DNA of 64,000 nucleotides from Lachnoclostridium sp. An181 (GTDB taxonomy: Bacteria > Bacillota > Clostridia > Lachnospirales > Lachnospiraceae). The DNA is taken from assembly GCF_002160325.1 (NCBI RefSeq), contig NZ_NFKJ01000002.1:62001-126000 (forward strand). Direction: 5' to 3'. How positions within the stretch are numbered: position 1 is the first letter of the stretch; each line of letters starts with the position of its first letter. Shown one piece after another: positions 6,049 through 60,460 of this stretch. The position numbers and the translations under genes are program-made. The notes beneath the pieces were generated by a model. It was not told the DNA's origin. It did no database searches and worked only from the letters and a program-made list of their open reading frames with translations.

Positions 6049-6996
6049 CTACTTAGAAACAGGTGTTCCATTGAGTGTAACCGTTTCGATTTCATCAAGA
6101 TCGATAAATTCATCGGTCAAAATCCCAATACAGCACCTCCCCTCATTGTCTTCGGTTGTCATATATTCCCCTTTGTTTTTCCCCATTCCCAGCAAAGTGG
6201 AAAGATAGAGCTCCTCTCCATTTCTCATACGGATCCGGATATCCGCATCCTTCGATTCGTTCTCTCTTTGATAAATGCAGGTAACTCCCATAGGGGTGAT
6301 CGTAAGCTCCATAAAATCTTTACATTCCGTATACGTTTTTACTTCATCCACTTGCTCTTCAATTTCCATCTCAAGCACCAGATACGACTCATTCTCCTCT
6401 GAATCAGTGCTTTCATTGTCTTCTTTTGTCTGCAGAAAAATCTTTGCCCTCTCATATGGGGCGGTATTGTCCTGCTTTCCTTCCATACTTATCAACTGAA
6501 AATACCACGTATCCTCATCCGAATATTTTTTCAGACATTTGGTATGGGTTGCACCTCCGCTTGGAGTCCCTTCCCCGTAAAGATTCAAAGACAGATAACT
6601 TTCATATTCTCCCATCTTCCTCATCCACTCCCTGCCCTCTTGGTCCAAAGTTTCCACTTTTACAAACACATTTGCAATGTTGCCGGTAAATGCACTGCTC
6701 TCCACAGACAGTCTTAAATGTTCATTTTCCACGCTTCTGGAAGGCTCATTGACTTCTTTCTCTATAATCTTTGCCGTATCCGGATAAATCTCTTCAAACC
6801 AGTTGTATTTTACTGCAGCAGCAGTACATGCTGTGACTGCCAGCATACAGATACAAAGCGATACCATGACGGTCTTCCATTTTCTTGAACAAAAAGAGCG
6901 ATCTTGTCTCTTCTCCAGTTTTTCGTACACTCGTTTCTCCAGATGATCAGAAAAAGGAATCTCTTCATATGCTTGTTTTAAATCTTCTTTTTTCAT
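6049..6996 (-). CDS. DUF4179-type membrane protein, probable anti-sigma factor
   Basis: A 315-residue single-pass membrane protein with a short cytoplasmic N-terminus, a hydrophobic segment at about residues 42-61 (VMVSLCICMLAVTACTAAAV) and a large extracytoplasmic domain. This layout is that of the DUF4179 proteins that accompany ECF sigma factors in Firmicutes. I chose the ATG at 6996 (MKKEDLKQAY) because GGGAGGA lies 7 nt upstream and because it overlaps the sigma-factor stop as ATGA; an upstream start 15 nt earlier is possible but lacks a site. Role as an anti-sigma factor holding the neighbouring sigma factor is inferred from position and topology. Confidence 0.8.
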   Translation of the reverse strand: MKKEDLKQAYEEIPFSDHLEKRVYEKLEKRQDRSFCSRKWKTVMVSLCICMLAVTACTAAAVKYNWFEEIYPDTAKIIEKEVNEPSRSVENEHLRLSVESSAFTGNIANVFVKVETLDQEGREWMRKMGEYESYLSLNLYGEGTPSGGATHTKCLKKYSDEDTWYFQLISMEGKQDNTAPYERAKIFLQTKEDNESTDSEENESYLVLEMEIEEQVDEVKTYTECKDFMELTITPMGVTCIYQRENESKDADIRIRMRNGEELYLSTLLGMGKNKGEYMTTEDNEGRCCIGILTDEFIDLDEIETVTLNGTPVSK

Positions 6997-58949: not shown

Positions 58950-60338
58950 TTATAATACCATATTCCATTCTCTGCAAAGGTCTGTTATCTTCTGTACCAA
59001 TTCATTGTCCGTCATGACCGTCACACGTCCATCTTCATACTCTTTGTCCACCCATTCTTTCAATGTTGTCACAAGCCTGCAATCCTTTGTGACCTGCCGA
59101 TCCTTTGGCAGCTTGTAATAGGTGTTGATCCAATGGGCAATTCCTGCCACGCCGGATGTGTTGGAAACGGACACAAGCGGAGGCCTTTTTAAAAATTTTT
59201 CCGTGTCAAAAATATTATAGATCTCTTCATTTTTTAAAAGTCCGTCCGCATGGATCCCAGCTCTTGTCACATTGAAGTTCTTTCCGACAAACGGGGTCCT
59301 TGAAGGAATATGGAATCCAATTTCCTTTTCATAGTATTCTGCAAGCTCTGTGATCACGGTTGTATCCATGCCGTCCAGGCTGCCTCTAAACTGTGCATAC
59401 TCAAACACCATGGCCTCAAGCGGGGTGTTTCCGGTTCTCTCCCCGATGCCGAACAGGGAACAATTGACGCCGCTTGCACCGTAGAGCCACGCTGTAGATG
59501 CGTTGCTCACTGCTTTGTAAAAATCATTGTGCCCGTGGAATTCAATCAGTTCACTTGGAACACCTGCGTGCACCATCAGACCGTAAATAATACCCGGAAT
59601 GGAGCGTGGAATCACAGCTCCCGGATAGTTGACCCCATATCCCATGGTATCGCAGACACGTACTTTGATCGGTATCTGATACTCTTCCATCAATTTCATA
59701 AGCTCCAGACAGAACGGAATGACAAAACCATAAATATCTGAACGGGTGATGTCCTCCAGATGGCATCTTGGGCGGATTCCAGTCTCCAGACACTCCCTTA
59801 TTACAGACAGATAGTGCTCCAAAGCCTCTTTTCTTGTCATTTTCAATTTATAAAAAATGTGGTAATCAGAACAGCTGACCAATACCCCCGTCTCTGCAAG
59901 GCCAATCTCTTTTACAAGCTGGAAATCTTTTTTGTTCGCGCGTATCCAGCTTGTGATCTCCGGGAATTCATACCCTCGTTCCAGGCACTTGTACACAGCC
60001 TCACGGTCTTTTTTGCTGTACAAGAAGAACTCTGACTGTTTGATCCTTCCGTTCGGGCCTCCAAGGCGGTGGAGATAATCAAAAATTGTCACAATCTGCT
60101 CCGGTGTATACGGAGCTCTGGACTGCTGGCCATCCCGAAAGGTTGTATCCGTAATCCAGATATCATCCGGCATATTGTGGGGCACAATTCTGTCATTGAA
60201 CGCAATTTTCGGAATCTGGTCATAGCGGAAAAGACTGTAAAAAACATTTGGTTCTTTTACGTCTACCAATGGATACATATGTTCTTCCAGCTGCAGCAAG
60301 TTATTGTGATAATTCATGAATACTCTTCTGTTTTCCAT
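58950..60338 (-). CDS. Re-citrate synthase-like / homocitrate synthase-family enzyme
   Basis: A 462-residue enzyme of the DRE-TIM metallolyase family (isopropylmalate/homocitrate synthases). The family motif is WITDTTFRDGQQSRAPYTPE, with metal-binding His pair in EFHGHNDFYKAVSNASTAWL and GIGERTGNTPLEAMVFEYAQ. The long N-terminal extension and direct coupling with isocitrate dehydrogenase fit the Re-type citrate synthase of Clostridia, which replaces ordinary citrate synthase in making 2-oxoglutarate; no lysine or leucine genes are nearby. Homocitrate or citramalate synthase remain possible. The ATG at 60338 has GGAGTGACG upstream. Confidence 0.85.
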   Translation of the reverse strand: MENRRVFMNYHNNLLQLEEHMYPLVDVKEPNVFYSLFRYDQIPKIAFNDRIVPHNMPDDIWITDTTFRDGQQSRAPYTPEQIVTIFDYLHRLGGPNGRIKQSEFFLYSKKDREAVYKCLERGYEFPEITSWIRANKKDFQLVKEIGLAETGVLVSCSDYHIFYKLKMTRKEALEHYLSVIRECLETGIRPRCHLEDITRSDIYGFVIPFCLELMKLMEEYQIPIKVRVCDTMGYGVNYPGAVIPRSIPGIIYGLMVHAGVPSELIEFHGHNDFYKAVSNASTAWLYGASGVNCSLFGIGERTGNTPLEAMVFEYAQFRGSLDGMDTTVITELAEYYEKEIGFHIPSRTPFVGKNFNVTRAGIHADGLLKNEEIYNIFDTEKFLKRPPLVSVSNTSGVAGIAHWINTYYKLPKDRQVTKDCRLVTTLKEWVDKEYEDGRVTVMTDNELVQKITDLCREWNMVL

Positions 60339-60359
60339 TTTCGTCACTCCTTGGTTTTT

Positions 60360-60391
60360 ATTCTGTATAATTGTATACAATTATACAGAAT
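60360..60391. promoter_or_regulatory. 32-bp perfect palindrome, probable GntR operator
   Basis: ATTCTGTATAATTG-TATA-CAATTATACAGAAT reads identically on both strands. Its centre TTGTATACAA fits the GntR-type half-site pattern TNGT...ACNA. It covers the -10 box and most of the spacer of the operon promoter, the classic position for a repressor. Confidence 0.85.
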
Positions 60392-60398
60392 ATGTCAA
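60370..60398 (-). promoter_or_regulatory. promoter of the citrate-synthase-like / gntR / icd operon
   Basis: Minus-strand TTGACA (60398-60393), 17-nt spacer, TACAAT (60375-60370), about 30 nt before the ATG and embedded in the palindrome. Confidence 0.8.
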
Positions 60399-60416: not shown

Positions 60417-60460
60417 AAAAAAGCCCGAAAGTGCAGGATGATCATCCTGTACTTTCGGGC
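60417..60460 (-). terminator. strong terminator of the DUF1653 gene
   Basis: GCCCGAAAGT (60423-60432) pairs with ACTTTCGGGC (60451-60460), and within it CAGGATGATCATCCTG is itself a perfect palindrome; one mismatch separates the two. On the minus strand TTTTTT follows. Confidence 0.93.

Follow-up and report, generated by a model that had tools for sequence, protein, structure and literature searches.

A 34-bp palindrome over the promoter of a citrate-synthase/gntR/icd operon as the very probable operator of its own FCD-GntR regulator in Clostridia

Within the window, that is, the whole stretch of 64,000 nucleotides that was analysed, a long perfect palindrome covers the promoter of an operon coding for a citrate-synthase-type enzyme, a GntR regulator and isocitrate dehydrogenase, which raises the question of which protein reads this element and which genes it controls. 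2-Oxoglutarate is the precursor of glutamate and, to our knowledge, the control of flow from oxaloacetate to these two compounds is poorly known in strictly fermentative Clostridia, many of which are gut commensals. Our comparison of genomes indicates that the GntR regulator encoded in the operon very probably uses the palindrome as its control site and so would govern its own operon.

A long palindrome over a promoter, and its conservation

The element TATTCTGTATAATTGTATACAATTATACAGAATA is a gap-free perfect palindrome of 34 bp (17+17 bp), and no other perfect, ungapped one in the 64-kb window reaches 18 bp. The longest palindrome in 60 dinucleotide-preserving shuffles measured 22 bp, so the 34-bp dyad far exceeds chance. 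The first-pass annotation had described a flawless 32-bp dyad within 60360-60398; its perfection holds, while its length becomes 34 bp (60359-60392) and the range given also takes in the -35 box. The placement of the dyad over the -10 box and spacer of a near-consensus promoter was borne out by the promoter scan, in which TTGACA-17-TACAAT agrees with the consensus at 11 of 12 positions. The 17-nt spacer occupies 60392-60376 on the minus strand, and the dyad spans it and the -10 box in their entirety. The core can be parsed as TGTATAAT TGTATACA ATTATACA, with an outer box flanking the central palindrome on each side at a period of 8 bp; the conserved part measures 24-26 bp and comprises four half-sites (Table 1).

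Table 1. Coordinates of the operon and of its control region in the window
Feature	Position	Strand	Evidence or remark
Putative operator, 34-bp perfect palindrome	60359..60392	.	sequence, chance shuffles, conservation, single good site in own genome
Operator core TGTATAATTGTATACAATTATACA	60364-60387		within the 34-bp palindrome
Conserved dyad	about 60363-60388		central TTGTATACAA plus an outer TGTATA/TATACA box per side, 8-bp period
-35 box TTGACA	60393..60398	-	promoter scan; same register to operator in 101 aligned loci, 1.7-1.9 bits per base
-10 box TACAAT, within operator	60370..60375	-	promoter scan; invariant or nearly so in 101 loci
Ribosome-binding site AAGGAG	60347..60352	-	sequence; precedes ATG at 60338
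Inverted repeat (19+19 nt), then T-run	60423..60460	-	between DUF1653 gene and operon; 95% complementary, gapless arms
Citrate-synthase-type enzyme, 462 aa, HMGL-like/DRE-TIM family	58950..60338	-	domain matches, gene context
GntR regulator with FCD domain, 224 aa	58257..58931	-	domain, structure model, ortholog alignment
NADP-dependent isocitrate dehydrogenase, 399 aa	57071..58270	-	start overlaps gntR stop

The upstream neighbour of the operon encodes a DUF1653 domain and ends ahead of an inverted repeat that is probably its terminator and lies outside the switch; a consensus scan of the window gave no flag for this repeat.

The operator was present upstream of the orthologous citrate synthase in 106 of the 109 relatives that each offered between 29 and 450 bp to search ahead of the gene, and one of the three relatives in which it was absent (L064) had only 29 bp to search. 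Across 101 distinct aligned sites, core bases reach up to 2 bits and the flanks mostly carry 0.1-0.7 bits. The TTGACA-N5-operator register is fixed as the flanks drift and the start of the site ranges from 45 to 282 bp ahead of the ATG; the conserved module is thus the -35 box plus an operator that contains the -10 box. A reversed control pattern matched 2 genomes, compared with 101 of 299 for the operator pattern. Aligning the regions upstream of orthologous citrate-synthase/gntR operons had been proposed as a check on the dyad, which is indeed kept among drifting flanks.

Pairing in excess of column composition is clear at positions ±12 and ±13, weak at ±15 and absent at ±14 and ±17. In the outermost 4 bp per side of the 34, pairing across relatives is on the whole little above chance, and most of these outer bases are therefore probably fortuitous. 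In some Mediterraneibacter-type loci (L048, L065, L070 and L076), drift in the left half is accompanied by a second dyad axis lying 4 bp downstream; co-variation about the shifted axis was not clearly above that of shuffles, and we set this candidate aside.

Inheritance with the regulator and through enzyme replacement

To relate the site to the regulator, we compared 116 genomes, mostly one per genus, counting operators with up to 3 mismatches and assigning membership of the gntR clade to best matches with an E-value of 1e-49 or lower, a threshold set at a clear score gap. Both elements occurred in 34 genomes, the regulator alone in 8, the operator alone in 1 and neither in 73 (Fisher p=1.5e-20); among the 53 synthase-bearing genomes, the corresponding counts were 30, 5, 0 and 18 (p=5e-10), both p-values being optimistic because the test treats genomes of shared ancestry as independent. 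The operator was absent in all 18 genomes that carry the synthase and lack a member of the gntR clade. In a midpoint-rooted tree, 44 operator-linked regulators separate from 18 paralogs (node support 0.71 on the operator-linked side and 1.0 on the paralog side), and no operator was found at 19 examined paralog loci, where the best match reached 24/34 as opposed to at least 27 in the linked group. Lack of conservation beside orthologous gntR genes, which the first-pass annotation had named as grounds for rejection, did not materialise: the dyad follows the gntR clade. Judged from these genomes, the predicted site and the regulator co-occur across the class Clostridia, mostly ahead of enzymes that make 2-oxoglutarate.

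The association extends to rearranged loci. The operator lies ahead of the operon that contains gntR, including cases in which gntR comes first or stands apart; operator-like sites precede gntR where it is separated from the synthase (L334, L335), and in G072 and G096 gntR does not adjoin the synthase, yet operators or operator-like sites lie ahead of both genes. The rule is broken at L025 (G067), which has synthase and gntR and no site; at L014 (G047), where the site is degraded; and at L192 (G044), where gntR lacks a site. Operator matches in G009 and G017, genomes without a member of the clade, are likely due to chance.

The enzymes under the operator change more than the operator does. Operator and gntR are kept with a citrate synthase of the PF00285 type at L189, L190, L300 and L315, with the gene order operator-gntR-icd-gltA in G026 and G036 and gntR-gltA in G407 and G434, and in G084 a separate PF00285 gene bears an operator of its own. 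Similarly, a NifV-like synthase occurs in G364, operator and gntR are kept with a NifV-like synthase at L296, and the operator persists beside an isocitrate dehydrogenase of another family at L188, L210 and L304, so that the isocitrate dehydrogenases under it have three different best family matches. Several lineages carry aconitase inside the operon or under its own site. This retention through enzyme replacement is the strongest argument that the regulator serves the route from oxaloacetate to 2-oxoglutarate, and it also supports changing the label of the first enzyme from homocitrate synthase to citrate synthase.

That enzyme matches PF00682 (E 9.4e-34), as expected of the DRE-TIM/HMGL-like superfamily, and we infer that it is Re-citrate synthase-like; its presumed synthesis of citrate follows from the gene context and from its replacement by PF00285 enzymes. 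Re-citrate synthases, which often carry the wrong label of homocitrate synthase, belong to the same superfamily (PMC12016533). One of them, HM1_2993 of Heliomicrobium modesticaldum, is of a type that likewise feeds 2-oxoglutarate synthesis, although it is described as a stand-alone gene rather than part of an operon (PMC12016533); the likeness is one of superfamily. The An181 genome has a second citrate synthase, of the PF00285 type (L274/C5; G000 contig 5, 55843-57018), with no operator nearby. Since the two coexist, the operon is not the sole route to citrate.

The regulator, its relatives and the proposed switch

The regulator combines a GntR winged helix (PF00392, E 2.9e-18) with an FCD domain (PF07729, E 2.3e-28). 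Its structure model (mean pLDDT 83.6) has six helices from residue 76 onward; six FCD helices rather than seven are typical of the VanR group. Its closest solved relatives are PmiR, Atu1419/VanR, DhdR and TM0439, the first of which comes from another group of organisms and governs other target genes. The operon itself is as the first-pass annotation had read it; the regulator had been called FadR-type, and these closest relatives are FCD proteins other than FadR. A fusion of GntR to isocitrate dehydrogenase had been flagged at five loci; at L092 the alignment had overrun a stop at 6067, and gntR frames read to the first stop encode 215-231 aa in 80 of 80 loci examined, ruling out a fusion.

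PmiR was the top match among solved structures in both fold (VIA-align) and sequence (phmmer; PDB 7xp0, 7xp1), with Z 22.4 and an rmsd of 2.2 A over 199 residues at 30% identity, followed by Atu1419 (Z 20.7, 3.7 A over 210 residues) and the inducer-binding domain of DhdR (Z 20.4, 1.5 A over 135 residues). One DhdR entry is titled with the inducer L2HG, which we take to be 2-hydroxyglutarate. PmiR of Pseudomonas aeruginosa is called a 2-methylisocitrate sensor in a title cited in PMC13086498, and by that title its reported ligand is a tricarboxylate near isocitrate. Residues D132, H136, H180 and H202, together with R45, are invariant in 48 orthologs; the first four are putative metal-site residues and R45 a putative DNA-reading one. 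The regulator thus has the Asp/Asn plus three His ligand pattern of metal-binding FCD members, and the metal ligands of Atu1419 are Asn137, His141, His192 and His214 (PMC7797058).

Atu1419, a VanR-type FCD-GntR repressor of Agrobacterium fabrum (PDB 6z74, 6za3, 6za7), shares the FCD fold and offers a close comparison at the DNA. Its site ATGTATACAT overlaps a -10 box, with Arg45 reading a G (PMC7797058), and matches TTGTATACAA except for the outermost base in each half. The protein has a three-histidine zinc site, and a fortuitous citrate occupies its pocket in the crystal (PMC7797058). In contrast to the compact four-box operator and 2-oxoglutarate-pathway genes found here, Atu1419 acts through distant palindromes on hydroxycinnamic-acid genes, with folate as effector (PMC7797058). 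The GTATAC centre stands at a fixed place in the 101 aligned loci and has the GT...AC form of an operator core; the earlier statement that it fits the GntR half-site rule agrees with the published palindrome rule, and extra half-sites have been reported 7-12 nt from the centre of GntR sites (PMC4494728). The TGTATA boxes also resemble the array of GGTATA boxes on which three dimers of the E. coli GntR repressor NanR sit side by side (PMC8012715). However, NanR binds direct repeats, controls sialic-acid genes and cooperates through a 32-residue N-terminal extension, whereas in our model helix 1 of the DNA-binding domain already begins at residue 9, leaving no such extension.

We infer binding, repression, number of dimers and ligand, and propose the following scheme. 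A dimer of the regulator would bind over the central TTGTATACAA and further dimers would probably occupy the two outer TGTATA boxes, the seating of several dimers being suggested by analogy. The operator includes the -10 box and the spacer, and the bound regulator would consequently block RNA polymerase, repressing its own gene together with those for citrate synthase and isocitrate dehydrogenase. The most likely mode is repression through occupation of the -10 box and spacer, which the overlap suggests without proving. At aspartate aminotransferase genes elsewhere, the site tends to follow closely a -10-like box of the TAGAAT type (judged by eye), an arrangement that also suits blocking. DNA binding would probably be altered by a metal-coordinated small acid of the oxaloacetate-to-2-oxoglutarate pathway. 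By analogy, the ligand is probably a metal-bound hydroxy- or oxo-di- or tricarboxylate, given the L2HG of DhdR, the 2-methylisocitrate of PmiR, the citrate in Atu1419 and the invariant metal-site residues. Taken as a whole, we regard it as highly likely that the palindrome is the operator of an FCD-GntR autorepressor of citrate synthase and isocitrate dehydrogenase acting by obstruction of RNA polymerase.

An autoregulated operator-promoter module of an FCD-GntR protein is a mechanism type already known, and an RNA or DNA structure, another protein, or activation could each be set against it. A perfect 34-bp dyad could fold on one strand, as an attenuator, another leader element or a cruciform. 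The predicted transcription start would fall near the downstream edge of the operator, so that the dyad would hardly be transcribed and a transcribed hairpin is unlikely; in addition, an Rfam search gave no match and base identity is conserved, not pairing alone. The self-complementary flanks were also rejected as a DNA or RNA hairpin signal, since co-variation beyond the core is clear only at ±12/±13, weak at ±15 and hardly present farther out. We therefore hold a hairpin or cruciform to be extremely improbable. That the palindrome serves some other transcription factor and is tied to gntR merely by operon linkage is also very unlikely: neighbours in an operon are co-inherited in any case, but operator-like sites accompany gntR even at loci away from the synthase, operator and gntR remain together when the enzymes belong to other families, the operator is missing from all synthase genomes without the clade, and the motif agrees with the GntR rule (PMC4494728).

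The case for an activator, or for a regulator that works in both directions depending on ligand, comes from CitO of Enterococcus faecalis, an FCD-GntR regulator of citrate metabolism in which citrate and metal lead to DNA binding and activation, a divalent metal aiding the binding of citrate (PMC4746285). CitO governs citrate breakdown rather than synthesis and binds upstream of its promoters, at -41 to -65 and -51 to -74 (PMC4746285), whereas the operator of the present operon includes the -10 box in fixed register, and its position, like that of the sites at aspartate aminotransferase genes, suits occlusion better; we consider activation unlikely. Alternatively, the operator may belong to the regulator while the first enzyme is a homocitrate or other DRE-TIM synthase. 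The NCBIfam matches to homocitrate, isopropylmalate and citramalate synthases all fall below cut-off and the genome has another citrate synthase, both of which leave room for this idea; it nevertheless appears improbable, as PF00285 citrate synthases take the place of the enzyme under the operator in G026, G036, G407 and G434, its neighbours are aconitase and isocitrate dehydrogenase, and homocitrate synthase is a known misannotation of Re-citrate synthases (PMC12016533).

Sites beyond the operon

The first-pass annotation had proposed a self-contained switch, and this description fits the An181 genome, which has one good extended operator; several sites occur in some relatives, whose predicted regulon reaches aconitase, amino-acid and ammonium genes. 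The central TTGTATACAA alone occurs 16 times in the An181 genome, compared with 3 for a control, and the extended operator once; target prediction therefore did not rely on the 10-mer by itself. Two matches with 3 mismatches, on contig 7, were discarded because the control gave as many, and the aconitase gene (C34) showed no site in the 6 kb examined. With a single good site in this genome, the extra targets are predictions for other lineages.

In regulator-bearing relatives within the same order, we read 21 sites outside citrate-synthase/gntR/icd operons and grouped them by hand. Thirteen precede aspartate aminotransferase-type genes of two families and two precede asparagine synthetases; the others lie, one each, ahead of an ammonium transporter with a PII domain, the 5-oxoprolinase subunit PxpB, a DUF4914 gene, a PF00285 citrate synthase, a sodium:alanine symporter and a PFL-like gene. 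As putative targets, those with a single example are weak. At the level of the class, 29 of 157 genomes have a site, and 26 of the 29 sites read precede genes for citrate synthase, aconitase, isocitrate dehydrogenase or GntR; the remaining three lie ahead of an aminotransferase, ahead of a gamma-glutamyltransferase-like gene and at a position cut by a contig end.

These distributions invite a broader reading, which we offer tentatively and with rather more doubt than conviction: that the gntR clade is a Clostridia-wide regulator tying 2-oxoglutarate synthesis to the amino-acid and ammonium economy (with aspartate aminotransferase, asparagine synthetase, the ammonium transporter and 5-oxoprolinase as targets), with a metal-bound acid (2-oxoglutarate, citrate or isocitrate, for example) as its signal, and using a compact operator that may seat up to three dimers. 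A search confined to the open-access literature returned no description of this regulon, and a text search for the motif gave no paper on it among the 25 matches listed of 315; it looks like a widespread regulator that apparently lacks a published description, though silence in the literature is no proof of novelty. The analysis thus puts names to a regulator, its putative operator and a group of targets open to experiment; these recur across many clostridial families and survive enzyme replacement, which makes ligand and logic directly testable and provides the operator as a search motif for genome annotation.

Two further observations concern individual targets. The DUF4914 protein (L178:3410-5293, in G045), of 628 aa and with no known function, is preceded by a near-perfect operator (1 mismatch), which suggests a possible tie to 2-oxoglutarate or amino-acid metabolism. 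Terminator-like hairpins followed by T-runs were seen by eye downstream of the operator at three loci (L236 after 2489, L253 before 2488 and L185 before 3500), in the leaders of asparagine synthetase and ammonium transporter genes, where they perhaps represent a second layer of control.
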